Origin: Paenibacillaceae bacterium
GTDB lineage: Bacteria; Bacillota; Clostridia; Lachnospirales; Lachnospiraceae
Direction of reading: 5' to 3'
NCBI GenBank assembly: GCA_015057705.1
Contig: SVDU01000008.1
Coordinates: 62,001 to 126,000 of the forward strand
DNA length: 64,000 nt
Positions 7,727-32,235 of the stretch are shown here, piece after piece (the stretch's first letter is position 1; the number at the start of each line of letters is the position of its first letter). A program made the position numbers and the translations under genes. The notes beneath the pieces are model-generated. The model saw only the letters and a program-made list of their open reading frames with translations, ran no database searches and had not been told where the DNA came from.

Positions 7727-8686
7727 ATGACGGAAGCGCGAAAGAAATTTAAACGAATTGGCGTTACAACCGGTTTGATATCCGGTCTTATGTACGGGTT
7801 ATACACCACCTTTGTACTGATCGCCGGATACTACAAACCACTTGCCGGGGCAGTGGGGCTTTTTGCCGCTCCCTACGTAACATCTGGTCTCAATGACTTA
7901 TTTGCCGGGATCTGGCTTACTGTGTACAACATAAAGACTGGAAGAATACGTGAGATCGGAAGAAGCTTAAAACTGTTTCCCGGCAAAATCATTTTACTTG
8001 GTTCCCTGGTAGGAGGACCAATTGCCAGCGGTGCATACTTAATGGGCCTGGCAATGGCAGGAGCTTATGCAATCCCGATATCTGCCATGTACATTCTTTT
8101 CGGAGCATTATTTGCACGGATCTTCTTAAAACAGAAAATTGTACCCAGAGTTGGTCTTGGTATGTTTATCTGTGTTGTTGGAGCAATCGTTATTAACTGG
8201 GTAAAACCAGAAGGCAGCTCCAATTTTACTCTTGGTATCATTTGTGCCTTTGTAGCAGCAATTGGCTGGGCGCTGGAAGGCGTATTTGCAGCTTACGGAA
8301 GTGCAATGCTTGACACAGATGTAGTAATCAATATCCGTCAGCTTTTATCCGGAATTGTAGATTTAATTGTAATTCTGCCTATCGTAGGCGGTATGGGACT
8401 TTTAAAAGGCACACTCTTTTCCCTGCCTCCCATTGCATGGCTGATCGTTTCCGGTCTCTGTGCGGCAATCTCCTATCTCTGCTGGTATAAGTCAAACAGC
8501 ACAGTAGGCTGTGCCATGGGAATGTCACTGAACATCACCTACGCGTTCTGGGGCGTGCTGTTTTGTATCCTGTTCATCAAACAGCCAGTAACCCCGACCA
8601 TTATCATTGGTTCTATTATCATTATCATCGGAGCTGTACTGGTATCCGTTGACCCATTTGAATTGCTAAATAAAAAGGAGGACTAA
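7727..8686 (+). CDS. DMT-superfamily (EamA-like) transporter, first copy
   Basis: A 319-residue polytopic protein with about ten membrane helices in two five-helix halves, the layout of 10-TM drug/metabolite transporters. Gly-rich packing motifs recur in each half. It is the first gene of the choline operon, 3 nt upstream of a shell gene, and has a close paralogue at 8980-9978. Context suggests import of choline or export of trimethylamine or another product; the substrate is inference. The ATG at 7727 has a GGGAAGG site about 8 nt upstream. Confidence 0.8.
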   Translation: MTEARKKFKRIGVTTGLISGLMYGLYTTFVLIAGYYKPLAGAVGLFAAPYVTSGLNDLFAGIWLTVYNIKTGRIREIGRSLKLFPGKIILLGSLVGGPIASGAYLMGLAMAGAYAIPISAMYILFGALFARIFLKQKIVPRVGLGMFICVVGAIVINWVKPEGSSNFTLGIICAFVAAIGWALEGVFAAYGSAMLDTDVVINIRQLLSGIVDLIVILPIVGGMGLLKGTLFSLPPIAWLIVSGLCAAISYLCWYKSNSTVGCAMGMSLNITYAFWGVLFCILFIKQPVTPTIIIGSIIIIIGAVLVSVDPFELLNKKED

Positions 8687-8689
8687 ACA

Positions 8690-8980
8690 ATGAAATATGA
8701 TGCATTAGGAATGATCGAAACAAAAGGTTTAATCGGCTCAATCGAAGCTGCAGACGCTATGGTAAAAGCAGCAAATGTAACACTTGTTGGAAAAGAATTT
8801 GTAGGCGGCGGACTTGTTACTGTTATGGTAAGAGGTGATGTAGGCGCAGTGAAAGCAGCTACTGATGCAGGCGCAGCAGCAGCACAGAGAGTTGGAGAAC
8901 TGGTATCTGTACACGTGATTCCACGTCCACATGCAGAAGTTGAGACAATTCTTCCGAAGGATAAAAAGGAGATTAAGTAA
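8690..8980 (+). CDS. BMC-H microcompartment shell hexamer protein (copy 1)
   Basis: A 96-residue single BMC domain of the PduA/CcmK type, starting with the typical [10 protein letters not shown] strand and [15 protein letters not shown] helix. The pore loop reads FVGGGLV where PduA-type proteins have IGSG. It forms hexameric facets of the shell. The start follows AAAGGAGG. It differs from the shell protein at 23606-23890 at one of the first 89 residues, then the tails diverge. The stop overlaps the next start by 1 nt. Confidence 0.95.
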
Positions 8981-9978
8981 TGGGTAACCAAGGAATGACA
9001 TCAGCATCTGCGGATGCGAAAATGGCAGCTATTAACAAAAAATTCAGGACAACTGGAATGACAACCGGTGCATTATCCGGACTTACCTACGGAATTTATA
9101 CAGTTCTTGTACTGGTAGCCGGTTACTATGAACCTCTTGCCAGCGCAGCAGGCCTTTTAGCAGGACCATATGTATTATCCGGCTTAAACGACCTTTTCGC
9201 AGGAATCTGGCTGACTGCATACAATGCAAAGAGCGGCCGTCTCCGTGAGATGGGCAGAAGTCTTAATACATTCCCTGGAAAAATGATTGTAATCGGATCC
9301 ATTCTTGGAGGACCTATTGCAAACGGCGCTTATCTGGTTGGTCTTGCCATGGCAGGAGCTTACGCAATCCCGATCTCCGCATTATGCAGTTTGTTTGGTG
9401 CAATTTTTGCCTGGATCTTCTTAAAACAGAAAATTACAAAAAGAGTTATGGTTGGTATGCTTGTATGTGTGGCTGGTGCCATCATTATCAACTGGACCAA
9501 GCCGGAAGGCAGTGATAACTTCACTCTGGGAATTATCTTCTCCTTCATCGCAGCGATCTGCTGGGCGCTGGAAGGTGTATTCTCTACCTACGGCGGAGCT
9601 ATGATCGACACTGATGTTGCTGTAAACTTACGTCAGCTCATCTCAGGTATTATAGACTTATTCGTAATTCTTCCTATCGTTGGAGGCTTAGGACTTTTAG
9701 GCGGAACTTTAACAGCAGGAATTCCAGTTATCTGGCTGGCAGTTGCAGGCTTAAGCGCAGCAGTATCTTTCCTTTGCTGGTATAAGAGCAACTCCACGGT
9801 TGGCTGTGCGATTGGTATGTCCTTAAATGTAACATATGCGTTCTGGGGCGTTTTCTTCTGTATCCTGTTTCTGGGACAGGCAGTTACCCCTACGATTGTA
9901 ATCGGCTCTATCGTAATCGTATTAGGTGCGATTGTAGTTACCATGAATCCACTGGATTTATTCAGGAAAGGGGAATAA
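8980..9978 (+). CDS. DMT-superfamily (EamA-like) transporter, second copy
   Basis: A 332-residue, roughly ten-helix protein closely similar over its whole length to the protein at 7727-8686, plus about 15 extra hydrophilic N-terminal residues. The pair, separated only by a shell gene, probably arose by duplication. They may act as a heteromer or carry different substrates of the choline pathway (choline in, trimethylamine out); both are inference. The TAATG junction with the preceding shell gene indicates translational coupling. Confidence 0.8.
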   Translation: MGNQGMTSASADAKMAAINKKFRTTGMTTGALSGLTYGIYTVLVLVAGYYEPLASAAGLLAGPYVLSGLNDLFAGIWLTAYNAKSGRLREMGRSLNTFPGKMIVIGSILGGPIANGAYLVGLAMAGAYAIPISALCSLFGAIFAWIFLKQKITKRVMVGMLVCVAGAIIINWTKPEGSDNFTLGIIFSFIAAICWALEGVFSTYGGAMIDTDVAVNLRQLISGIIDLFVILPIVGGLGLLGGTLTAGIPVIWLAVAGLSAAVSFLCWYKSNSTVGCAIGMSLNVTYAFWGVFFCILFLGQAVTPTIVIGSIVIVLGAIVVTMNPLDLFRKGE

Positions 9979-9982
9979 AAAC

Positions 9983-10264
9983 ATGTTATTACCTGCAAGA
10001 ACAGCGGTTTTAAATTATTTATACGGAGTAGAAAGTGCTGACATCGCCCAGATTATGGGAGCTTTAAAGTCAGAGTACGGCAGTGAACGTCAGTTTACTA
10101 AAGATCGTTATATGGATCACGTTATGTCCTTAGAGGCAAACGGACTGGTTAACTTACAAAGCTATGATTTAGATGAGAAGGGTGATCTGCGCATGCGTTA
10201 TTCAATTAACGACGATGGCAAGGCAACCGTAGACAAGTACGTAGACAAGAAATACCGCAAATAA
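9983..10264 (+). CDS. Small protein in choline operon, possible winged-helix fold, function unknown
   Basis: A 93-residue soluble protein. The helix pattern (AVLNYLYGVESADIAQIMGAL, then YMDHVMSLEANGLV) followed by two short beta-type stretches (NLQSYDLDE, LRMRYSIND) resembles a winged helix of the PadR or replication-initiator kind, without an obvious basic recognition helix. No BMC domain and no Cys. It lies 4 nt after a transporter and 20 nt before a shell gene, so it is part of the operon. It could be a small regulator or a core-assembly factor. I do not recognise its family. Confidence 0.65.
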   Translation: MLLPARTAVLNYLYGVESADIAQIMGALKSEYGSERQFTKDRYMDHVMSLEANGLVNLQSYDLDEKGDLRMRYSINDDGKATVDKYVDKKYRK

Positions 10265-10284: not shown

Positions 10285-10581
10285 GTGAGATATTACGGAG
10301 ATGAAGCATTAGGGCTGGTAGAGACTCTCGGATTAACTCCGGCTCTGGAAGCAGCAGATAAGATGTTAAAAGCAGCAGATGTAGAATTAATTTCCTATGA
10401 AAACGTAGGCTCTACCCTGGTAACCATTATGGTAAAGGGTGATGTGGCAGCCGTACGTGCCGCCGTTGATGCAGGCGCAGAAGCAGCAGCAGCCATCGGC
10501 AAACTGACTGCACATAATGTAATGCCAAGACCCATCAAAGAAGTCGGCGACATTGTATCAGTACATGATATTGACGCGTAA
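10285..10581 (+). CDS. BMC-H shell hexamer protein, variant pore
   Basis: A 98-residue single BMC domain (ALGLVETLGLTPALEAADKMLKAADV at the N-terminus region, PRPIKE near the end). The pore loop is NVGSTLV, different from the other hexamers in the operon, so its pore is lined by Ser and Thr. GTG start at 10285 with AGGAGG about 13 nt upstream and an extra GAAGG closer in. Confidence 0.92.
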   Translation: MRYYGDEALGLVETLGLTPALEAADKMLKAADVELISYENVGSTLVTIMVKGDVAAVRAAVDAGAEAAAAIGKLTAHNVMPRPIKEVGDIVSVHDIDA

Positions 10582-10598: not shown

Positions 10599-10904
10599 AT
10601 GGAAAGATATGAAGCCATCGGCTCAATTGAAACATTTGGTTTGGTATTCGCATTAGAAGCAGCTGATGCAATGTGTAAAGCTGCAGATGTTGAACTTGTT
10701 GGTTATGAGAACGTAGCTTCCGGATATATTTCCGTTCTGGTACGCGGAGATGTAGGAGCCTGCAAGACTGCAGTTGATGCAGGAGTGAAAGCAGTAAGCG
10801 ATATGGGCGCTGAGATTTACAGCTGTGTTGTAATCCCAAGACCTCATCCGGATCTTGTAAAGATCATCAAGAGATATGCAATCGCTGCGCCGGAGCAGGA
10901 ATAG
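10599..10904 (+). CDS. BMC-H shell hexamer protein, aromatic pore variant
   Basis: A 101-residue single BMC domain (AIGSIETFGLVFALEAADAMCKAADV). The pore loop reads NVASGYI, placing a Tyr where others have Leu. It has an unusual Cys in the first helix and one after the pore (GACKTAV), plus Cys in SCVVIPRP. ATG 10599 has GAGAGGA upstream. It sits directly before the aldehyde dehydrogenase homologue. Confidence 0.92.
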   Translation: MERYEAIGSIETFGLVFALEAADAMCKAADVELVGYENVASGYISVLVRGDVGACKTAVDAGVKAVSDMGAEIYSCVVIPRPHPDLVKIIKRYAIAAPEQE

Positions 10905-10935: not shown

Positions 10936-12420
10936 ATGAATTTTGTAGATAAAGACCTTCTCTCCATACAGGAGGCAAGGATTTTAATGGAAAGCGCAAG
11001 AGACGCCGGTAAGACCATGCTCACCTTCCCCCAGGAAAAGCTTGATACCATCGTCGAAGGTCTTGCAAATGCAGCAAAGGAACTGGCAGAAGAACTGGCT
11101 GTGATGTCCGCAGAAGAAACAGGCTACGGACGCGCAAAAGATAAGCTTGTAAAAGACACCTTTGTCTGCGAATTCTTACCGAAGCACTTACGGGATATGA
11201 AATGTGTGGGCGTCTTAAATGAAGACCCTGTACGTAAAACCATGGACGTAGGCGTTCCGGTGGGAGTCATCGCTGCTCTGACTCCTTCTGTAAGCCCGGT
11301 CTCCACTGCGATTTATAACGTACTGATTGCAGTGAAGTCCGGAAACCCCATCGTCATCGCTCCTCATGAGCGGGCGGTAAAGGTGACAGGCAGGCTTCTT
11401 GACTGTATGAAGGAAGCCGGTCTTCGATACGGACTTCCGGAAGGAGCCATCGGATATTTAAAGACGATAACGAAGGCAGGAGCTTTGGAACTGATTCATC
11501 ACCCGGCAGCAGCCATGGTGGTGAATACCGGAGTGCCGGAATTAAACCGTGAGGCAGCACAAAGCGGAAAGCCCTACATCTACGGAGGCACCGGAAACGG
11601 ACCTGTATTTATAGAGCGGACAGCTGATTTGAAACAGGCGGTTGAAGATATAATTGTAAGCCGTACCTTTGATTACGGAATCGTTTCTGCGGCAGAGCAG
11701 TATGTGGTAGTGGACAGCTTAATCGCGGCAGAAGTAAAAGCAGAAATGTTGAAAAACGGTGCGTATTTCATGAACGGGGAAGAGGAAAAGCAGTTAATTG
11801 ATCTTCTCAACCTGGAACATGGAAATGCAGATACGGAGATTATGGGAAGACCGGCCATAGAACTTGCCAGACGTGCAGGTTTTACAGTATCGGAAAACAC
11901 AAGTGTTCTGGTTTCCCAGCAGAAATATATTTCTGACAGAAACCCATTTGCAAAAGAGCTTCTCTGTCCCGTACTTGCCTACTACATCGAAAACGACTGG
12001 ATGCATGCCTGCGAGAAATGTATGAGTCTCCTGGTAAATGAAAGCCATGGTCACACTCTGGTAATCCATTCCAGAGACGAAGAAGTAATCCGGCAGTTCG
12101 CTTTGAAAAAACCGGTTGGAAGAGTGCTTGTCAATACCCCTGCCACATTAGGCAGCATGGGAATGACCACTAATTTATTCCCTGCCATGACGCTGGGGAG
12201 TATCACCGCCGGAGCCGGTATTACATCGGATAATGTTTCCCCCATGAATTTCATCTATATCCGGAAAGTCGGATATGGAGTGAGAAAAGCCGATGAATAT
12301 CTGGAAAATGCAAAAACAGATTTTTGTTCCTGCACCCAGGCTGTGGCACCTGCCAGTCAGCATGGAGATGCAAAAGAACTTTTAAAGCAGATATTAGAAG
12401 CATTATCAAAGGAACTGTAA
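10936..12420 (+). CDS. CoA-acylating aldehyde dehydrogenase homologue lacking the catalytic Cys (probable pseudoenzyme)
   Basis: A 494-residue protein homologous along its length to EutE/AdhE-type acetaldehyde dehydrogenases, like the enzyme at 21350. The active-site motif is altered: where the active paralogue has TICASEQ with Cys251, this protein has IVSAAEQ with Ser251 (TCT at 11686-11688). The nearby TGGPGMV loop is also replaced by NTGVPELN. The C-terminus ends in an amphipathic helix (AKELLKQILEALSKEL) like microcompartment targeting peptides, so it is probably packaged. It may be structural, bind CoA or NAD, or pair with the active enzyme. Start ATG 10936 follows GAAGGGAGAA. It directly precedes cutC. 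Confidence 0.85.
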   Translation: MNFVDKDLLSIQEARILMESARDAGKTMLTFPQEKLDTIVEGLANAAKELAEELAVMSAEETGYGRAKDKLVKDTFVCEFLPKHLRDMKCVGVLNEDPVRKTMDVGVPVGVIAALTPSVSPVSTAIYNVLIAVKSGNPIVIAPHERAVKVTGRLLDCMKEAGLRYGLPEGAIGYLKTITKAGALELIHHPAAAMVVNTGVPELNREAAQSGKPYIYGGTGNGPVFIERTADLKQAVEDIIVSRTFDYGIVSAAEQYVVVDSLIAAEVKAEMLKNGAYFMNGEEEKQLIDLLNLEHGNADTEIMGRPAIELARRAGFTVSENTSVLVSQQKYISDRNPFAKELLCPVLAYYIENDWMHACEKCMSLLVNESHGHTLVIHSRDEEVIRQFALKKPVGRVLVNTPATLGSMGMTTNLFPAMTLGSITAGAGITSDNVSPMNFIYIRKVGYGVRKADEYLENAKTDFCSCTQAVAPASQHGDAKELLKQILEALSKEL

Positions 12421-12450
12421 GAGAAATAATTGAAAGAGAGGGTAAACAGA

Positions 12451-14997
12451 TTGGATATTCGTGAATTTTCTAATAAATTTGTAGAAGCAACGAAAAACAT
12501 GACACCAGAAGAAAGAGCTTCCCTGATGAAGATGTTTGAAACTGTTTCTGACGAAATCAATAAAAATGAGCCTGCAAAGGCAGCTGCTGCAGTATATGCC
12601 GAGGAGGGTACAACCATTCCTGACGGTATTACAACAAGACTTCAGAAATTAAAAGAGAACTACTTAACACACAAGCCAACCATTACAACATACCGTGCCC
12701 GCGCGATCACAAAGATTGCTGCAGAAAATCCAGGTATGCCAAAGATCATGCTTCGTGCAAAATGTTTCCGTTACTGCTGCGAAACAGCTCCCCTTGTAAT
12801 TCAGGACAACGAGCTGATCGTAGGTGCTCCAAACGGCGCTCCTCGTGCAGGTGCTTTCTCTCCTGATATTGCATGGAGATGGATGAAGGATGAAATCGAT
12901 ACCATCGGAAGCCGTCCTCAGGATCCATTCTATATCTCTGATGAAGATAAAAAGATCATGAGAGAAGAGCTTTTCCCATACTGGGAGGGCAAATCCGTTG
13001 ATGAGCACTGCGAAGATCAGTATCGTGAAGCTGGTGTTTGGGAATTATCCGGCGAATCCTTCGTTTCTGACTGTTCCTATCATGCAGTAAACGGCGGCGG
13101 TGACTCCAACCCTGGTTATGACGTAATCTTAATGAACAAGGGTATGCTTGATATCCAGCAGGAAGCTAAGGATCATTTAAAAGAGTTAAAATACGAAAAT
13201 CCAGATGACATTGAGAAGATCTACTTCTACAAGTCCATCATTGATACCACAGAAGGCGTTATGATCTACGCTAAGAGACTTTCTGAGTATGCAAAAGAAC
13301 TTGCTGCGAAAGAAACCAATCCAAAGCGTAAAGATGAGCTTTTAAAGATCGCTGAAGTAAATGCATACGTTCCAGCTCACAAGCCAAGAACTTACTGGGA
13401 AGCAATTCAGTCTGTATGGACCATCGAGTCTCTGCTTGTAGTAGAAGAGAACCAGACTGGTATGTCCATCGGACGTGTAGACCAGTATATGTACCCTTAC
13501 TACAAAGCTGATATCGAAGCTGGCCGTATGAATGATTTCCAGGCATTTGAGCTTTCAGGCTGTATGCTTATTAAGATGTCTGAGATGATGTGGATCACCA
13601 GCGAAGGCGGTTCTAAATTCTTTGCAGGTTACCAGCCATTCGTTAATATGTGCGTAGGTGGTGTAACAAGAAGCGGAATGGATGCAACCAATGACTTAAC
13701 ATACCTTCTTATGGATGCTGTCCGTCATGTAAAGATTTATCAGCCATCTCTTGCATGCCGTATTCACAATAAGTCCCCGAAGAAGTACTTAAAGAAAATC
13801 GTAGATGTTGTTCGTTCCGGTATGGGATTCCCTGCCTGCCACTTTGACGACGCACACATCAAGATGATGCTTGCAAAGGGCGTTTCTATTGAAGATGCAC
13901 GTGACTACTGTCTGATGGGTTGTGTAGAGCCTCAGAAATCAGGACGTCTGTATCAGTGGACTTCAACTGCTTATACACAGTGGCCAATCTGTATCGAGCT
14001 TGTACTTAACAAAGGTGTACCGTTATGGTATGGCAAACAGGTTTGTCCTGATATGGGCGACATCAACAGCTTTAAGACTTATGAAGAGTTTGAAGCAGCT
14101 GTTAAGGAAGAAATTAAGTACATTACAAAATGGTCTTCTGTTGCAACCGTTATCTCCCAGCGCGTTCACAGAGAGCTTGCTCCAAAGCCATTAATGTCCA
14201 TCATGTATGAAGGATGTATGGAAAAAGCAAAAGACGTATCTGCAGGCGGAGCTATGTATAACTTCGGACCTGGTGTTGTATGGTCAGGACTTGCAACCTA
14301 TGCAGATTCCATGGCAGCAATTAAAAAGCTGGTATTTGATGAGAAGAAATACACACTTGCACAGTTAAATGAAGCATTAAAGGCTGACTTTGTGGGCTAT
14401 GACCAGATCCGCACCGATTGCCTCAATGCACCAAAATACGGAAATGACGATGATTACGCAGATTTAATTGCTGCAGATTTAGTTGACTTTACTGAGCATG
14501 AGCACAGACAGTATAAGACTTTATACTCTGTATTAAGCCACGGTACATTATCTATTTCCAACAACACACCATTCGGTCAGTTAACAGGCGCTTCTGCAAA
14601 CGGACGTCATGCATGGCTGCCTTTATCCGATGGTATCAGCCCAACCCAGGGTGCTGACTTCAAGGGACCGACAGCAATCATCAAGTCTGTATCCAAGATG
14701 GCAAACGACACCATGAACATTGGTATGGTACACAACTTTAAGATCATGGCTGGACTTCTTGATACACCAGAAGGAGAAGAAAGCTTAATTACTCTTCTTC
14801 GTACCGCCTGCATGTTCGGAAACGGCGAAATGCAGTTTAACTACTTAGATAACAACACACTGATTGAGGCTCAGAAACATCCGGAACTTTACCGTGACTT
14901 AATCGTCCGCGTAGCTGGATACAGCGCATTCTTCGTAGAGCTGTGCAAGGATGTACAGGATGAGATCATCAGCAGAACCATGTTGACACATTTCTAA
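12451..14997 (+). CDS. cutC: Choline trimethylamine-lyase, glycyl radical enzyme CutC
   Basis: Cleaves choline to trimethylamine and acetaldehyde by glycyl-radical chemistry inside the microcompartment. Numbered from the TTG at 12451 (848 aa), every CutC active-site residue I recall from Desulfovibrio alaskensis has a counterpart at +2: Tyr210, Asp218, Phe397, Cys491 and Glu493 (GCVEP), Thr504, Tyr508, and glycyl radical Gly823 (RVAGYSAF). The Tyr/Asp/Phe choline-pocket residues separate it from glycerol and propanediol dehydratases. TTG 12451 was chosen because AGAGAGGG lies 8 nt upstream; an in-frame TTG at 12430 lacks a good site. Length matches the short (type I) CutC. CutD follows 22 nt downstream. 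Confidence 0.95.
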
Positions 14998-15019: not shown

Positions 15020-15973
15020 ATGGACCATGGAAATACAGGAGATATTGAACGTAAGGCGCTGATCTTTAACGTACAGAAGTACAACATGTATGACGGACCG
15101 GGAATCAGAACCCTGGTATTCTTTAAAGGCTGCCCGCTCCGGTGTAAATGGTGTGCCAATCCGGAAGGACTGGTACGGAAATTCCAGGTGATGTTTAAGC
15201 AGAATTCCTGTACAGACTGCGGGGCATGCGTAAGTGTTTGCCCCGTAGGAATCCATGTGATGTCCAAAGAGACCGGAAAACATGAAATCAGACGGGATAA
15301 GGATTGTATCGGCTGCATGAAATGTAAGAATGTCTGCCCCAATTCAGCGCTTTCCATTGCCGGAGAGGTAAAGACAATTTCCGAGCTGTTAAAAATCGTA
15401 GAGGAAGATGCCGCATTTTATGATATATCTGGCGGCGGTGTGACATTAGGCGGCGGTGAAGTAACTGCTCAGCCCGAGGCAGCCTTAAATCTTTTGATGG
15501 CATGCAAGAGGGAAGGCATTAACACAGCCATTGAAACCTGTGGTTACACAAAAACCGAAACGATTTTACAAATCGCAGAATACGTGGATTTATTCCTTTA
15601 TGACATTAAGCATATGGATCCGGTTCGCCACAATGAACTGGCCGGTGTAAACAATGAACAGATCTTAATCAATTTAAAAGAACTGCTTCACCACCGTTAC
15701 AACGTAAAGGTTCGTATGCCAATGTTAAAGGGAATCAACGACAGCCGGGAAGAAATCGATGCAGTCATTAAATTCTTAATGCCGTTTCGTGATTACAAAA
15801 ACTTTAAGGGAATTGACTTACTTCCTTATCACAAGCTGGGAGTAAACAAATACAACCAGCTGGATATGGAATATCCAATCGATGGAGATCCAAGCTTAAG
15901 TGCGGAGGATTTAGACCGTATCGAAGGCTGGATGAATGAGTATCAGTTCCCGGTTACTGTGGTAAAACACTAG
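15020..15973 (+). CDS. cutD: CutC-activating radical SAM enzyme CutD
   Basis: A 317-residue glycyl-radical-enzyme activase that installs the Gly radical on CutC using SAM. The radical SAM cluster motif CxxxCxxC is at Cys38, Cys42 and Cys45. It is followed by two ferredoxin-type 4Fe-4S motifs at Cys64/67/70/74 and Cys96/99/102/106, the arrangement of choline and glycerol activases. A GGGVTLGGGE SAM-binding segment lies at about residue 138. ATG 15020 follows GGAGAAC and is coupled to cutC by position. The partner is assigned from adjacency. Confidence 0.95.
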   Translation: MDHGNTGDIERKALIFNVQKYNMYDGPGIRTLVFFKGCPLRCKWCANPEGLVRKFQVMFKQNSCTDCGACVSVCPVGIHVMSKETGKHEIRRDKDCIGCMKCKNVCPNSALSIAGEVKTISELLKIVEEDAAFYDISGGGVTLGGGEVTAQPEAALNLLMACKREGINTAIETCGYTKTETILQIAEYVDLFLYDIKHMDPVRHNELAGVNNEQILINLKELLHHRYNVKVRMPMLKGINDSREEIDAVIKFLMPFRDYKNFKGIDLLPYHKLGVNKYNQLDMEYPIDGDPSLSAEDLDRIEGWMNEYQFPVTVVKH

Positions 15974-16327: not shown

Positions 16328-16878
16328 GAAAAAAGAGAATCATGATCATCGGACCGGGCGGCAGCGGAAAAACTGCCCTTGCAGCCGCAATCAATGGTTT
16401 AGACGGTCCTGTCAAACGGACACAGAACATGGTATATGGGGAGAAAACCTTAGATGTACCGGGAGTTTATTTAGAAAGTCCCTGGATGCACAAACACATC
16501 ATCGCGGCAGCTCAGGACGCCTCCCATGTACTGATGCTGGTAGACCAGTCCTCATGCCGGGAGAGTTACCCCCCGGGATTTGCAAAAGCGTTCCGGGTGC
16601 CGGTAATCGGAGTTATTACAGGAAGCGGAAAAAAGCCGGAGAATGACGGCTGGTGTATCCGTCAGTTAAAGAAAGCAGGGATTACAACTCCCTGTATTCA
16701 CATCAACTTATCGGACCGGACGGGAATTGATGAGTTGATGGAACAAATTTTAAGAAATACCCCTTCGGGTATACCTCAATGCCCAGAAAGCGTGGGCAAT
16801 ATTCTAGGAAATACCCTACGGGTATCCCTTGATGCCCAAAGAACGTGGGCAAAACTTAAAGAAAGGAGGGAAATGTAA
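16324..16878 (+). CDS. EutP/PduV-like small GTPase-fold protein with repeat-encoded C-terminal extension
   Basis: A 184-residue P-loop protein. Walker A is [10 protein letters not shown] at residues 10-19, and the core ends with a [14 protein letters not shown] helix near residue 144, the usual length of EutP/PduV (about 140-160). EutP/PduV proteins are microcompartment-linked, reported as GTPase-like or acetate-kinase-related and thought to aid localisation. The last ~40 residues are encoded by a two-copy palindromic DNA repeat (16754-16861) and are not part of the normal fold. A ribosome site for the downstream dehydrogenase (AAAGGAGGG) lies within its last codons. Start ATG overlaps the previous stop. 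Confidence 0.85.
16754..16861 (+). repeat. Tandem palindromic repeat (2 x ~54 nt) inside the EutP-like gene
   Basis: Two imperfect copies start at 16754 and 16808 with GAAATACCC. Each holds two small hairpins: TACCC/GGGTA (loops CTTC and TAC) and TGCCC-N9-GGGCA. The stems are conserved while loops and flanks vary, as in REP or RPE-type palindromic elements. It is translated as the C-terminal extension of the GTPase-like protein and lies just before the alcohol dehydrogenase start. Confidence 0.85.
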
Positions 16879-16879
16879 C

Positions 16880-18016
16880 GTGGAGCAATTTGTAATGAAC
16901 ACAAAGGTATATATGGGATCTTCCTGTCTGGAAAAAATCAAGGAACTTCCAATCGAAAAAGCTTATATCATCTGTGATCCCTTTATGGCTCAGTCCGGTA
17001 AGGTGAATTTAATTACAGACCTGCTGACAGAAAAAGGAAGCAGCTTTGAAGTCTTTTCAGAAGTAGTGCCTGATCCTACCATCGCCGTTGTATCAAAGGC
17101 AATCGGTGGAATGAAAGGCTTTGCACCGGATACGATCATCGCGTTAGGCGGAGGTTCTGCCATCGATACCGCAAAGGCAGCAAGCCATATTTATACACAG
17201 ATGGGAAATGACAAGCTGAATTTAATTGCAGTTCCAACCACCAGCGGAACCGGAAGCGAAGTAACTAATTTTTCCGTTATTTCTGATCCGGATGCTCAGG
17301 CGAAATATCCTCTGCGCTCCGACAGTATGGTACCGGATGCGGCATTCCTTGATCCCCGCTTTACAGTGTCAGTACCGCCTCATATTACGGCAGATACCGG
17401 TATGGATGTTTTAACCCATGCGTTAGAAGCCTATGTTTCAACCAATGCAGGTGATTTTACTGATGCATGTGCGGAAAAGGCAGTCAGACTGGTATGGAGC
17501 TATCTGGCTCGTACTGTGGAAGAAGGAAGCGACATGGAGGCAAGAACTCACATGCACAATGCTTCCTGTCTGGCAGGAGTTGCTTTTAACGGTGCGTCTT
17601 TAGGACTTTGCCATAGTATGGCACATGCACTGGGAGCCCGTTTCCACATTCCGCATGGAAGAAGCAATGCAATGCTGCTTCATCATGTAATCAGTTATAA
17701 CGCTGGTTTAGAGGATGCAGGAGATTTTGCAGCATGCAGCAGATATGTTGCCATTGCCAACATGCTTGGCATAGCAGCAGGAACAGAGAAAGCCACGGTA
17801 CACGGCCTGGTGCGTCACATTAAAAATCTTATGAGTAAGATTAAAATACCGCAGCAGATCACCGATTTAAACGTGGACAAAGACGAATTCGAACAGGCTG
17901 TACGGGAAATGGCAGAGAAAGCACTAAAGGATAACTGCACATTGACCAACCCAAGAGTGCCTACGGTAGAAGAGATCGAAACGATTTACCGTAAGCTTTG
18001 TAAGGGGGGGTATTAA
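16880..18016 (+). CDS. Iron-dependent alcohol dehydrogenase of the choline operon
   Basis: A 378-residue group III (Fe) alcohol dehydrogenase. It has the NAD-binding GGGSAIDTAKA motif (about 84-94) and the metal ligands: Asp and His in the TGMDVLTHALEAY region, then the His of GLCHSMAHALG and IPHGRSNA. It reduces acetaldehyde from CutC to ethanol and regenerates NAD+; this is the role called CutO in other choline loci. GTG 16880 was chosen because AAAGGAGGG ends 9 nt upstream; the frame also opens further back at 16829 without a ribosome site. It overlaps the following start by 1 nt (TAATG). Confidence 0.9.
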   Translation: MEQFVMNTKVYMGSSCLEKIKELPIEKAYIICDPFMAQSGKVNLITDLLTEKGSSFEVFSEVVPDPTIAVVSKAIGGMKGFAPDTIIALGGGSAIDTAKAASHIYTQMGNDKLNLIAVPTTSGTGSEVTNFSVISDPDAQAKYPLRSDSMVPDAAFLDPRFTVSVPPHITADTGMDVLTHALEAYVSTNAGDFTDACAEKAVRLVWSYLARTVEEGSDMEARTHMHNASCLAGVAFNGASLGLCHSMAHALGARFHIPHGRSNAMLLHHVISYNAGLEDAGDFAACSRYVAIANMLGIAAGTEKATVHGLVRHIKNLMSKIKIPQQITDLNVDKDEFEQAVREMAEKALKDNCTLTNPRVPTVEEIETIYRKLCKGGY

Positions 18017-18639
18017 TGAAATTCATCACCGAAGAAGATTTGAGAATTTTATTCAGAAGAGAACCCTTTGCCTCTTATGATCTTCCTGCGCAGGCAAAGC
18101 TTACACCAGGAGCCCGTCAGTTTCTGTTGGACAAGAAGATATCATTTTGCGATGATCCCATGACGGCAAAACGCAAACCATCAAAACCTGCAGAAGTGGT
18201 CGTAGAGACACCAGTTACAGTTACAGAGCCTGCGCCAGACCGTTTCTTATTAAAACTGGAAACCTTAAAGGCACAGTTTCTGGAAGCCGGAATTTCCTTA
18301 TTAGACAGGGACGTGCTGTTAGCAGAGCAGGTATTTGATTTAGAGCGGAAGTTATCTTTCGTGGGGAAAGGTGCTTCGGGCGACATAAATCCATTTGAGT
18401 CCTGCACCGGATTTAATAAGGAAAACCAAAACGAACCATACTCTGACTGTTTTGAGATCACCGGCTTTCATGCCCAATCCGAAAAAGGAAGAGAAATAGT
18501 CCTGTTACACCGTCTGCGCTGCTGCGTTCGTGAACTTGCGGCAGAAGCAGGAGAAAAGAATTTTAACCCGGTTATTAACCGCTTATCCCAGATGATCTGC
18601 CTGTTGTATGGAGGAAATGCATGTCAAAGAAAGAAATAA
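18016..18639 (+). CDS. EutT-like microcompartment-associated protein, function unclear
   Basis: A 207-residue protein. The N-terminal 40 residues (FITEEDLR, then LPAQAKLTPGARQFLLDKKISF) resemble the start of EutT and EutQ-type proteins. After a Pro/Thr/Glu linker (about 55-75), the helical C-terminal part loosely resembles a cobalamin adenosyltransferase. The HHCCxxC-type metal motif of EutT is not present, only LLHRLRCC. A corrinoid enzyme would have no obvious use here because CutC needs no B12. It may therefore be a remodelled structural or scaffolding relative. Its end overlaps the EutJ start by 19 nt. Confidence 0.6.
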   Translation: MKFITEEDLRILFRREPFASYDLPAQAKLTPGARQFLLDKKISFCDDPMTAKRKPSKPAEVVVETPVTVTEPAPDRFLLKLETLKAQFLEAGISLLDRDVLLAEQVFDLERKLSFVGKGASGDINPFESCTGFNKENQNEPYSDCFEITGFHAQSEKGREIVLLHRLRCCVRELAAEAGEKNFNPVINRLSQMICLLYGGNACQRKK

Positions 18640-19466
18640 CATTTGATAGCTGCAACGAACTGGTAAGCCAGTTTGAAGCAGTGGTAAAAAATCCTGTCAG
18701 GGAACGTTCCTCAGTTTATTATACGGGGGTGGATTTAGGAACAGCGTGCGTGGTAGTGGCTGTACTTGATGAGAATTTCAGGCCAGTGGCCGGCGCTTAC
18801 CGGTATGCGGATGTAGTCCGTGACGGAATGGTAGTTGATTATATCGGTGCAATCCGGATCGTTCGTGAGTTAAAGGCAGAACTGGAGGAAAAGCTTAACA
18901 CGGAACTGCTTTATGCAGCTGCAGCCATTCCTCCGGGAACCGATTCACTGGACGGAGGCGCAATCAAGAATGTGGTACAGGGAGCCGGATTTGAAATCAC
19001 CGCCCTTCTTGATGAACCGACGGCAGCAAACGCAGTACTAAAGATACAAAACGGCGCAGTGGTGGATATCGGCGGCGGAACCACTGGAATTTCTATTTTA
19101 AAAGATGGAAAAGTAGTTTACGTAGCTGATGAGCCCACGGGAGGAACTCATTTTTCCCTGGTTGTATCCGGAGCTTATAACCTCTCTTTTTCAGAAGCAG
19201 AGCTTTATAAGCGAAAAGAAGAAAACCACAAAGAGCTGCTTCCGGTATTAAAGCCGGTAATTGAAAAGGTAGCCTCCATTATTAACCGCCACATCAAAGG
19301 ATATGACGTAGATGAGATCTACTTAGTAGGCGGTACCTGCTGCTTAGCAGGAATCGAAACAATTATTGAGAAGCAGACTGGGATCCATACACGAAAACCG
19401 GACAACCCCATGTTTGTAACTCCTCTGGGAATCGCATTCTCCTGTACTCAGGAGGAAATGGATTAA
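18621..19466 (+). CDS. eutJ: EutJ-like Hsp70/actin-fold chaperone
   Basis: A 281-residue ATPase-fold protein of the EutJ family. Phosphate-1 motif DLGTACVVVAVLD is at about residues 40-52, phosphate-2 motif VDIGGGTTGISIL at about 148-160, and the adenosine region reads VGGTCCLAGIE. EutJ homologues occur in many microcompartment operons and are thought to help fold or reactivate cargo; its exact client here is unknown. ATG 18621 has GGAGG about 9 nt upstream, within the preceding gene, so it is translationally coupled. Confidence 0.88.
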   Translation: MSKKEITFDSCNELVSQFEAVVKNPVRERSSVYYTGVDLGTACVVVAVLDENFRPVAGAYRYADVVRDGMVVDYIGAIRIVRELKAELEEKLNTELLYAAAAIPPGTDSLDGGAIKNVVQGAGFEITALLDEPTAANAVLKIQNGAVVDIGGGTTGISILKDGKVVYVADEPTGGTHFSLVVSGAYNLSFSEAELYKRKEENHKELLPVLKPVIEKVASIINRHIKGYDVDEIYLVGGTCCLAGIETIIEKQTGIHTRKPDNPMFVTPLGIAFSCTQEEMD

Positions 19467-20696: not shown

Positions 20697-21323
20697 ATGA
20701 TGCAGGCACTTGGCTTTATAGAAACAAAAGGTGTGCTGGTGGCAATTGAAGCTGCCGATGCCATGTTAAAGGCAGCGGATGTGTCTCTGGTAGAGAAAAC
20801 CAAAGTTGGCGGAGGTCTCATTACTGTTACGGTGACCGGCGATGTGGCGGCAGTGAAGGCAGCGGTTGAGGCCGGAGCGGCGGCAGTGGAGCGAATTAAC
20901 AGTGCCGCATTAATCACACGCCATGTGATTCCAAGGCCTCATGAGGAACTTGCAGCTGTCATCGGCGGCAACACTCCAGATGGACCGGAGAAGGCACCAG
21001 TACCGGAGATTACCATGGAACCGGAAGAAGAGGCAGCCGTACCAGTCGAAGAGACAGTTGAAACATCTGCTCAGATAACAGACGAAGAACCAAACTCAGA
21101 GACAGAGCTGGTGGATACCATAAAGAGAGAGACCATTGATCTGTGGATGCACCAGGACGGTCTTACTGAGACCATGAAGATACTTGAAGATATGAAGGTA
21201 ACAGAGCTTAGGACGCTTGCCCGTGAATATCCCGAATTCAGCATAGCTGGAAGAGAGATTTCAAAGGCAAATAAAACCCTGCTGCTGGAAGAATTCAGGA
21301 AGTATTACGGACAAAATGATTAA
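20697..21323 (+). CDS. BMC-H shell protein with acidic linker and Rho-N/SAP-like C-terminal domain
   Basis: A 208-residue protein. Residues 1-88 form a normal BMC-H domain (pore KVGGGLI, end VIPRPHEEL). Residues about 95-140 are a disordered acidic linker rich in Glu, Pro and Val. The C-terminal ~60 residues are helical, with a segment (VTELRTLAREYPEF, then ISKANKTLLLEEF) resembling the Rho N-terminal or SAP fold that often binds nucleic acid. The architecture recalls EutK/PduK shell proteins with extra C-terminal domains. It could tether cargo, RNA/DNA or neighbouring compartments. ATG 20697 follows AAGGAGG. Confidence 0.88.
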   Translation: MMQALGFIETKGVLVAIEAADAMLKAADVSLVEKTKVGGGLITVTVTGDVAAVKAAVEAGAAAVERINSAALITRHVIPRPHEELAAVIGGNTPDGPEKAPVPEITMEPEEEAAVPVEETVETSAQITDEEPNSETELVDTIKRETIDLWMHQDGLTETMKILEDMKVTELRTLAREYPEFSIAGREISKANKTLLLEEFRKYYGQND

Positions 21324-21349: not shown

Positions 21350-22900
21350 ATGGAAAATTTTGATTATGATTTGCGTTCCATCCAGGAAGCAAGGGATTTA
21401 GCCAGAAACGGCGAAGCGGCAGCAAAGAAAATCGCAGGATATACAGCAGAACAGATTGATGTCATCTTAAGAAGTATGGCAAAGGCAGGCGAGGAGCACT
21501 CCCTGTGTCTGGCACAGATGGCAGTGGAAGAAACAGGATTCGGTAAAGTGATGGATAAGGCTTATAAGAACCATGCAGCTTCCACACTTTTATATGAAGA
21601 GATCAAGGACATGAAAACAAGAGGAATTCTTTGCGAAGATACTGTAAAGCAGACCTTTGATGTAGCAGAGCCGGTAGGACTTGTAATGGGTATCGTACCT
21701 TCTACAAACCCAACCTCTACTGTATTCTTCAAATCCATGATCGCAATTAAATCAGGAAATGCAATCGTATTTTCCCCACATCCATCTGCAGCAAAATGTA
21801 CTCAGAAGGCAGCAGAGGTTATGTGTGAAGCTGCTATTGCAGCTGGTGCACCAGAGGGAATTATCAGTTGCGTAACCATGCCTTCCATGGGATCAACCAA
21901 TGAGCTGATGAAGTGCAAGGAAGTTTCCATTATCATCGCAACTGGCGGCCCTGGAATGGTAAAAGCAGCTTACAGCGCAGGAAAACCTGCAATCGGCGTA
22001 GGCGCTGGAAACTCTCCGGCATACATCGAGAAGACAGCTGACGTAAAACATGCAGTAAGAACCATTATGGCCAGCAAGACCTTTGACTACGGTACCATCT
22101 GTGCTTCCGAGCAGTCCATCATCTGTGAAGAAAGCAACCATGCAGAGGTTGTAGCAGAATTAAAGAGCCAGGGCGGCTACTTCATGACAAAAGAAGAAAC
22201 CGACAAGGTTTGCAATCTGTTATTCAAAAACGGTCATAACATGAACGCGAAGTTTGTAGGACGTTCTCCTCAGGTGATCGCTGCAGCAGCAGGTATCACC
22301 ATTCCGGAAGGCACAAGAGTGTTAATCGGTAAACAGGAAGGCGTAGGCGAAGGATATCCGTTATCCTATGAAAAGCTGACAACTGTTCTTGGTTTCTATA
22401 CCGTTAAGGACTGGGAAGAAGCGTGTGGTTTAAGCTACCGTCTGTTACAGAACGGTATTGGACATACCATGAGCATTCATACTCAGGACAGAGATATGGT
22501 ATTAAAATTTGCAGCAAAACCAGCTTCCAGAATTCTTGTAAACACAGGCGGAAGCCAGGGCGGAACCGGAATCAGCACAGGTCTCCCAATTGCCTTCACA
22601 TTAGGCTGCGGAACCTGCGGCGGAAGCTCTGTTTCTGAAAATGTAAGCCCGAAACATTTACTGAACGTTAAGACAGTAGCATTCGGCTTAAAAGACTGCA
22701 CAACCATTGTAGATGATGACCCAACTTTCATGTGGAAAGAAAAATCACAGGCTTCCTCTTCCTTTAGCCCTGCTGAGCTTGTTGCTTCCTTTGAGAAAAA
22801 GGAAAGTGCTCCGGCAGCTTCCTGCCAGAGCGGCTGTGAAGACAATGACAAGCTTGCGGCTCTTGTAAAGGAAATCGTTCTGGCTATGAAAGGCCAGTAA
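21350..22900 (+). CDS. CoA-acylating acetaldehyde dehydrogenase (active copy)
   Basis: A 516-residue EutE/AdhE-type enzyme that converts acetaldehyde, CoA and NAD+ to acetyl-CoA. The catalytic motif GTICASEQ is intact with Cys251, and the TGGPGMV and VGAGNSP loops are conserved. The C-terminus has a flexible Ser/Cys-rich linker (about 470-498) and an amphipathic helix ([15 protein letters not shown]) typical of microcompartment encapsulation peptides. It pairs functionally with PduL 26 nt downstream and the alcohol dehydrogenase upstream. This is the catalytic counterpart of the Cys-less homologue at 10936. Start ATG 21350 follows AGAAGAGGAG. Confidence 0.93.
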
Positions 22901-22925: not shown

Positions 22926-23561
22926 ATGGATAAGTATGAAGCGGTAATCAAGCTCTTAATGGATGCTGTAAAATCAGAATCCGGCAGTGATGAGCTGACG
23001 ATTCCGGTAGGCGTTTCCAACCGCCATGTGCATTTGTCTCAGGAAGATTTAGATACTCTGTTTGGAAAAGGCTATCAGCTGACCAACATGAAAGAGTTAT
23101 CCCAGCCTGGACAGTATGCATGCAAGGAAATGGTAACGGTATGCGGTCCCAAGGGAGCCATTGAAAAAGTCCGCATTTTAGGACCTGTAAGAAAGCAGAC
23201 TCAGGTAGAAATTCTGGCTGCCGACTGCTTTAAACTTGGCAGAAATACAACACCTAAAATGTCCGGCGAACTGGCAGGAACACCAGGAATTACACTGGTA
23301 GGACCAAAAGGCACCGTAGAGACAAAAGAGGGCTTAATCATTGCCCAGAGACATATTCACATGTCACCGTCTGACGCTTTAAAATTCGGCGTACATGATG
23401 GTGAGACAGTTAAAATTGAAACAGAAGGCATCCGTGGAGGAATCTTTAACAACGTGGCAATCCGCGTAACAGAGACCTCAGCGTTAGAATGTCACTTAGA
23501 TACGGAAGAAGCCAATGCTATGGGCCTTTCCGGTTCATCTAAGGTAACAATTGTTAAATAG
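22926..23561 (+). CDS. pduL: PduL-type phosphotransacylase
   Basis: A 211-residue PduL-family enzyme that converts acetyl-CoA to acetyl-phosphate and recycles CoA inside the compartment. An N-terminal amphipathic helix (YEAVIKLLMDAVKSE) fits an encapsulation peptide. Two PTAC-type halves follow, with the His-rich metal sites VSNRHVHLS (about 28-36) and AQRHIHMSP (about 139-147). The role matches the product called CutH in other choline clusters. ATG 22926 follows AAAGGAG. Confidence 0.93.
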   Translation: MDKYEAVIKLLMDAVKSESGSDELTIPVGVSNRHVHLSQEDLDTLFGKGYQLTNMKELSQPGQYACKEMVTVCGPKGAIEKVRILGPVRKQTQVEILAADCFKLGRNTTPKMSGELAGTPGITLVGPKGTVETKEGLIIAQRHIHMSPSDALKFGVHDGETVKIETEGIRGGIFNNVAIRVTETSALECHLDTEEANAMGLSGSSKVTIVK

Positions 23562-23605: not shown

Positions 23606-23890
23606 ATGAAATATGATGCATTAGGAATGATCGAGACTAAAGGTTTAATTGGATCCATCGAGGCAGCAGATGCTATGGTTAAGGCAGCTAACGTAACTTT
23701 AATTGGTAAAGAATTCGTAGGCGGCGGTCTTGTAACTGTTATGGTAAGAGGCGATGTAGGAGCTGTTAAGGCAGCAACTGATGCAGGTGCAGCAGCAGCT
23801 CAGCGTGTAGGCGAACTGGTTTCCGTACATGTAATTCCTCGTCCACATGCAGAAGTAGAAACAATTCTTCCTGCAGCAAAAGAAATCTAA
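23606..23890 (+). CDS. BMC-H microcompartment shell hexamer protein (copy 2)
   Basis: A 94-residue BMC-H domain identical to the protein at 8690-8980 at 88 of the first 89 residues (Val33 is Ile here), with a different short tail. The DNA of the two genes differs at many third positions. Pore loop FVGGGLV. It is the last gene of the operon, 45 nt after pduL, with a strong CAGGAGG site that may give high expression. Confidence 0.95.
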
Positions 23891-31550: not shown

Positions 31551-32235
31551 AGTGAAGCGCCGTCTTTAAAGTCTGCCATTGGTGACGATTACTGGAAAAG
31601 TATGAGAGTAAACGATAAAATTTATGGTGCCCCCAGCACCTATAGTGAGTATACGGCATATGGCTTTGTTACCCGGAAAGATTTATTGGAAAAGACTGGG
31701 ATTGCTAAGGTGAATTCAGTAGAAGATATGGAACGCTACATGGATGCGGCAAAAGAAAAGGTTGGGCACCTTTAAACGGAAGTGCCAACCTGTCTATGGA
31801 TTTATACCAAATGTTTGTTGGAAAAACCAGCGACTGGATTGATGCTCCGGGTGTGCCCAATACAGAGATGTATCTGACTTCTTCCCTGGGAAATACAGAC
31901 AAAGTATTTCATCCTGCATTTACCAGTGAATTTGAAACATTTGCAGTTAAAATGCATGAATGGGCTGAAAAAGGATACTGGGGAAAAGATGTTTTATCTT
32001 CTGCCAGGATGACAAGGATAATTTTTATAATGGATTATCAGCTTCCTACATCAGCCATCAGCCAGACTGGACAGGTTCCTATGGAACACAAAAAAAGAAA
32101 TTACCCGATGTTGAAACAGAATTCTACGCTTTTGCAGAAGCTGCAAATAAAATTGAACGGAAAATGGGTGTAGAAAATGCGACAGGAATCAGTGCGAAAT
32201 CTGTTCCAGTATGGAATTCTTGGAAGAGAATATGA
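31539..32235 (+). pseudogene. Decayed extracellular solute-binding protein gene
   Basis: Three consecutive reading frames give pieces of one sugar ABC solute-binding protein of the large (LplA/DUF3502-like) kind. Frame one covers 31539-31774 (KIYGAPSTYSEYTAYGFVTRKD) and ends in TAA. Frame two runs from about 31769 to about 32010 (DLYQMFVGKTSDWIDAPGVP). Frame three runs to TGA at 32233-32235 (DNFYNGLSASYIS, then VPVWNSWKRI). The signal peptide, N-terminus and C-terminus are missing and at least two frameshifts are needed, so it is not functional. Confidence 0.85.

Follow-up and report, generated by a model that had tools for sequence, protein, structure and literature searches.

The window analysed here, a stretch of 64,000 nucleotides, carries a choline-utilisation microcompartment locus that spans approximately 7.7 to 23.9 kb and contains two aldehyde dehydrogenase (AldDH) homologues. 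All genes given with coordinates in this paragraph lie on the + strand. Alignment, profile score and tree identified the first homologue (10936..12420, 494 aa) as a putatively dead acylating AldDH of the CutB type, the second AldDH of GRM1 loci; its codon 251 (TCT, 11686..11688), at the position of the catalytic Cys, reads Ser. Directly 5' of this gene is a BMC-H shell gene (10599..10904), preceded by two others (8690..8980 and 10285..10581; all three PF00936). Downstream follow CutC choline trimethylamine-lyase in its short form (12430..14997, 855 aa as called; TIGR04394, 1680.2 bits against a cut-off of 1050), the CutC-activating radical SAM enzyme CutD (15020..15973; TIGR04395), a CutO-like iron-type alcohol dehydrogenase (16829..18016; family matches under cut-offs), a EutJ family protein (18621..19466; NF011660 and TIGR02529 over cut-off) and a BMC-domain shell protein with a C-terminal extension (20697..21323; PF00936). 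The second homologue (21350..22900, 516 aa) retains Cys251 and is presumably the active acetaldehyde dehydrogenase of the CutF type (TIGR02518, 741.4 bits, above the curated cut-off of 620.1). Beyond it lie a PduL-type phosphotransacylase (22926..23561; NF011652, 282.5 bits against a cut-off of 209) and a BMC-H shell protein recognised as a near copy of the 8690 gene (23606..23890). EutP- and EutQ-like proteins are also present in the locus, with scores under cut-offs. We take the AldDH copy beside cutC to be the one named CutB. In the available text of two papers, CutB and CutF are the labels of two predicted acylating dehydrogenases (PMC13258700, PMC6620236).

The host genome is of the Lacrimispora type: among 14 loci with the window protein, those with 93-99% identity are mostly Lacrimispora records. 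The two near-identical BMC-H genes (8690-8980 and 23606-23890) stand at opposite ends of the locus and share 85% DNA identity over 280 bases, their proteins being almost the same. EamA-type transporter genes (7727-8686 and 8980-9978), whose proteins are 69% identical, flank a shell gene, and we would guess that this tandem pair takes up choline. A 93-aa protein (9983-10264) matched no Pfam or NCBIfam family; it adjoins the transporter in loci L163, L164, L165 and L044 too, at 29-38% identity. Translation of CutC, called from TTG 12430, may really begin further on, at TTG 12451, judging by eye from a ribosome-site-like stretch ahead of it and from one relative. Promoter and terminator scans of the cut locus found sites no more frequently than in shuffles. 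Elsewhere in the window, a short ORF 3' of the ATP synthase operon (31796-32173) resembles by eye a fragment of a longer gene.

The two AldDH homologues are 38% identical (174/461, BLASTP). As an earlier note on this DNA had claimed, they align without gaps to the active site, where both number 251; the alignment is gap-free through residue 368. The same note's reading of Ser251 (TCT) in the window protein versus Cys251 (TGT) in the copy at 21350-22900 proved correct, as did its description of a clean reading frame, the ORF at 10936-12420 + being uninterrupted over 494 aa. Its account of a TGGPGMV loop that adjoins Ser251 and has been lost needs amending on both points. The motif occupies residues 198-204, roughly 50 residues upstream in sequence, and is substituted to TGVPELN with no deletion, T198, G199 and P201 being retained. 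Further changes relative to the paralogue are N120S in the PSTNPTS motif, T122V, G216Y/V217G and S253A. With Ser251 for the catalytic Cys and Ser120 for the oxyanion Asn, the window protein lacks residues required of an acetylating acetaldehyde dehydrogenase. It scored 493.7 bits with TIGR02518, below the cut-off that its paralogue exceeds. Homology to enzymes of the EutE/CutF type (TIGR02518) is nevertheless full-length (393 bits to 3k9d and 341.8 to 5j78), and His373 and Glu341 are shared. Dead copies differ from that type in the absence of Cys251 and usually of N120, and in V200 and Y216.

AldDH copies of this kind have been described before. The available text of Axen et al. 2014 (PMC4207490) reports a Cys-to-Ser or Cys-to-Pro replacement in one AldDH of every GRM1 locus that has two, and suggests a scaffold or regulator role for the Cys-less enzyme. 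The earlier note thus repeats both this observation and this suggestion, its candidate roles being a structural partner, a CoA/NAD-binding scaffold or a regulator. A putatively inactive second AldDH is likewise marked in GRM1A and GRM1B by Sutter et al. 2021 (PMC8217296), again in the text available. The window locus is of the same type: CutC, CutD and BMC shell genes lie alongside, the catalytic Cys is replaced by Ser251 (one of the published kinds, Ser or Pro), a second AldDH with Cys251 is present in the same locus (21350-22900), and CutC is short as in type I loci (855 aa as called, versus 1140 aa in L165). We found no difference of substance from the published GRM1 copies; the window protein adds one more instance to a kind published in 2014 and is not new. 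Added here are the occurrence of Ala and Val at residue 251, further changes in the pocket, the separation of dead from live copies by one branch, and the distribution. A literature search of open-licence papers found no experiment on the dead AldDH copy in the text available.

We examined residue 251 across relatives. From the loci 154 proteins were drawn, 142 of them distinct; one of 22 residues was dropped and fragments of more than 200 residues were kept, giving 141 aligned relatives. Residue 251 was not Cys in 89 (78 Ser, 6 Pro, 4 Ala, 1 Val) and was Cys in 51, whilst one protein, the second gene of L043, did not reach the site. The 89 dead copies include many close relatives, and thinning at 90% identity left 57 (50 Ser, 3 Pro, 3 Ala, 1 Val). 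Among relatives sharing at least 50% identity with the window protein, a single one, from Enterococcus (L044, 50%), has Cys251. This Cys-bearing AldDH, from a cut locus (L044:9986-11476), was the nearest live relative among those examined. The dead copy of L083, with Pro251, adjoins cutC and shares only 41% identity with the window protein; its branch is very long and its placement in the tree unsure. The samples were centred on the genome of the window and its phylum, with the GRM1 loci of Desulfovibrio and Actinobacteria lying outside them.

A quick maximum-likelihood tree was built from 87 rows, near copies and two distant rows (L003 and L004) having been left out; one branch with support 100 split 36 Cys rows from the 51 others. 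Ala251 required four separate changes on this tree and Pro251 three. Judged from sequence, activity was probably lost once, with residue 251 drifting afterwards. The several separate changes to Pro and Ala indicate that residue 251 seems to be without a chemical task, which argues against a task for Ser251 itself. The conservation of Ser251 in other cut loci, put forward earlier as a check, was found in part: Cys is absent across the clade (89 distinct copies), but Ser is not required, as Pro, Ala and Val occur. Cys in other cut loci had been named as the result that would count against the idea. None was found in the dead clade, although the single-AldDH cut locus of Enterococcus does carry Cys. 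A strain-specific mutation at 251 is thus rejected, the replacement being clade-wide in both the 89 distinct copies and the tree.

Changes in the dead copies extend through the active-site pocket. The set thinned at 90% identity comprised 57 dead and 37 live proteins. Live enzymes were invariant (at least 97%) at 101 positions, of which 68 were kept in at least 90% of the dead ones and 33 were not. The most nearly fixed changes were the loss of C251, G200V, G216Y with V217G, T122V and A58S. Among distinct dead copies, G200 was replaced by Val in 85 of 89, A197 and V204 were mostly replaced, and N120 was lost in 69 of the 88 covering the site. N120 corresponds by motif order to N138 of Cphy1178 (PMC4762007, available text) and would on this analogy be the oxyanion residue. 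Taking a position as replaced where most dead rows had changed, 11 of 31 live-invariant positions near six catalytic motifs were replaced compared with 6 of 70 elsewhere (Fisher p 0.003, with the windows chosen post hoc).

Other catalytic residues were retained. Amongst the 88 distinct dead copies covering each site, the general base His373 was kept in 88, His144 in 85, and Glu341 and P143 in 82 each. The retention of His373, Glu341 and His144 leaves room for cofactor binding or residual chemistry in the dead copy. The available text of PMC4762007 names a Pro-His pair and an Arg as cofactor contacts, and the pair may correspond to P143/H144, going by motif order only. According to the same text, a Cys-to-Ala mutant of a related BMC enzyme had its activity abolished with its fold and CoA binding intact. 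Activity loss on changing Cys to Ser or Ala is also reported in what is available of PMC5311937.

Selection on the gene was estimated from nine available loci, each compared with the window; the CutF-type gene was partial in eight of them and CutC was compared in eight. The dead gene gave dN/dS values of 0.056-0.095, below 0.1 in all nine pairs, against 0.012-0.084 for the CutF-type paralogue (nine pairs) and 0.016-0.058 for CutC (eight pairs). In eight of nine pairs the value for the dead gene was above that of the active paralogue. The window protein ends in an amphipathic, encapsulation-peptide-like helix (residues 479-494; 12370..12417, + strand), identified by helical moment and conservation. 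Ranked among all 16-mers of the protein, its last 16 residues reach the 98.5th percentile for helical moment. Of 87 dead copies with a complete C-terminus, 85 have within their last 25 residues a 16-mer that ranks in the 90th percentile or higher for the protein concerned, compared with 23% for random internal stretches. The helix is retained across the genus behind a variable linker, and in this feature the window protein resembles BMC cargo. In the Clostridium asparagiforme copy (L043) the C-terminal extension is almost lacking.

Distribution was followed by whole-genome searches that scored few candidates per genome (2 to 8, depending on the search), and absences hold at that sensitivity. 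Within the genus, the gene was found in every genome sampled (25/25, counting that of the window), one copy being a fragment with a stop. A Lacrimispora MAG (L042, also L067) has an interrupted dead AldDH beside a well-matching cutC, through either real loss or assembly error. In the family 5/397 genomes carried the gene (E 1e-130 or better), two of the five belonging to the genus, and in another family of the class it was present in 40/194 (E 1e-140 or better). Of the 89 distinct dead copies, 80 have cutC directly 3' on the same strand, at most 260 bases away, and four have it 260-1600 bases off. It was not seen near the other five, where the available stretch may be too short. Among the 51 live copies, none was seen with cutC directly downstream. 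The note had also held that the gene looks selected rather than decayed and keeps a targeting-like C-terminal helix. Both statements stand: the helix is kept in the window protein and in 85/87 complete dead copies, and the gene's presence in all sampled genomes of the genus, its dN/dS below 0.1 in 9/9 pairs and its linkage to cutC in 80/89 copies all point to selection.

The dead copy also co-occurs with CutC. In the second family sample (194 genomes), all 40 genomes with a dead AldDH lie within the 41 that have CutC. The 41st, G1191, has a CutC of 1140 residues, the sole long form met, and one AldDH (Cys) on a 12-kb contig. In the phylum sample CutC was present in 14/398 genomes (E 1e-250 or better), and 12 of the 14 also had a dead copy; a further genome, G924, has a dead copy with its cutC truncated by the contig end. 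G757 and G795, two genomes of one genus, encode a short CutC in a locus of unchanged gene order, except that no dead gene stands between the shell gene and cutC; their CutF-type gene retains N120, G200 and Cys251. Within approximately 20 kb around each cutC no other AldDH match had an E value under 0.5, and a search of the remainder of either genome at E 1e-110 listed no dead copy (three candidates scored per genome). PduS- and PduT-like genes were named by eye from sequence in G757. Short-CutC loci of this kind, lacking a dead AldDH, are L163 and L164, and L163 also has PduS- and PduT-like genes (by eye). In Enterococcus L044, a short CutC (846 aa) is accompanied by a single AldDH (Cys) in 21 kb, with more distant AldDH-like matches elsewhere in the genome. 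The rule that a short CutC always comes with a dead AldDH is thus rejected by G757 and G795. Since these loci lack the dead gene whilst their CutF-type gene keeps its Cys, the organelle does not depend on the dead copy, common though it is.

We favour the reading that the window protein is a catalytically dead second AldDH of a GRM1 (type I cut) locus, kept as a non-catalytic subunit for assembly of the core, and give this a probability of about 0.62. The loss of Cys, the single branch, the pocket changes, the TIGR02518 score below cut-off, the published inactivity of Cys mutants of related enzymes, the low dN/dS, the helix, and the linkage to and co-occurrence with cutC all argue for it. Retention of His373, Glu341 and His144, the two genomes without the gene (G757 and G795), the interrupted copy (L042, also L067) and an evolution faster than that of the active copy argue against it. 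The protein would have descended, probably once, from an acylating acetaldehyde dehydrogenase, losing its nucleophile whilst the substrate and nicotinamide pocket was remodelled. It probably forms oligomers of the ALDH type, alone or mixed with the active paralogue. It may contribute to the assembly of CutC and the active dehydrogenase inside the shell, by virtue of the C-terminal helix and the position of its gene next to cutC.

The strongest of the other explanations, though an unlikely one, is a regulator that binds NAD(H) or CoA without turnover and acts by buffering or sensing a private pool of cofactor or by modulating the active enzyme. The conserved P143, H144, E341 and H373 are consistent with such binding, as is the crystal of the related Cys-to-Ala enzyme, still CoA-bound (PMC4762007, available text); the Val at G200 in the Rossmann loop and the replacement of A197 and V204 should however disturb nicotinamide binding. 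The same retained general base and Glu might serve an aldehyde dehydrogenase of unusual mechanism or acting on another aldehyde. We regard this as very improbable, with no thiol at the site and published Cys mutants of relatives inactive (PMC5311937 and PMC4762007, as available).

Even less credence is given to Ser251 as the nucleophile of a different reaction, for example acyl transfer or hydrolysis. Ser is present in 78/89 distinct copies next to an invariant His373, yet 11/89 have Pro, Ala or Val on several separate branches, each with cutC at most 213 bases downstream, and the oxyanion Asn is mostly lost. A needed Ser nucleophile is unlikely given these residues at 251. A decaying, functionless duplicate seems equally implausible: the absence from two short-CutC loci, the interruption in one genome and the dN/dS above the active copy in 8/9 pairs would fit decay, but the low dN/dS, the occurrence in every sampled genome of the genus and the preserved helix do not. 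Decay is rejected for the clade as a whole.

The non-catalytic core subunit that we prefer has a possible counterpart in the other choline microcompartment. The N-terminal domain of GRM2 CutC is a dead glycyl-radical domain and likewise a non-catalytic duplicate of a core enzyme, although its fold is unrelated and, unlike the dead AldDH, it is fused to CutC (PMC6971018, available text). In what is available of Kalnins et al. 2020 (PMC6971018), this domain of long CutC is essential for CutF to co-migrate with shells via CutC, and CutF is proposed as a core cross-linker. A review, in its available part (PMC6325248), states that the long-CutC extension resembles GRM1 CutC with the radical site absent, and that at the N-terminus of GRM1 CutC there is just a short extension, itself a predicted encapsulation peptide. 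By analogy, the two dead proteins may share a role. From these GRM2 findings we tentatively suggest, as a doubtful extension, that the dead AldDH is an adaptor in trans, tying short CutC to the active dehydrogenase as the GRM2 CutC N-terminal domain reportedly does. Two choline organelles would then have killed opposite partners for the same assembly problem, one using a dead lyase domain and the other a dead dehydrogenase. The second family sample fits this idea, with 40 short-CutC genomes having the dead copy and one long-CutC genome lacking it. Counting against it are the two short-CutC genomes without a dead copy, the Enterococcus locus, the finding of one long CutC only, and the presumed encapsulation peptide of short CutC itself.

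Choline breakdown to trimethylamine by gut bacteria is linked to human health and disease (review PMC6325248, available text). A conserved dead core enzyme is a handle on the sorting and proportions of the organelle's cargo. If the adaptor suggestion were true, it would explain the differences in CutC length and AldDH number between the two types of choline organelle.
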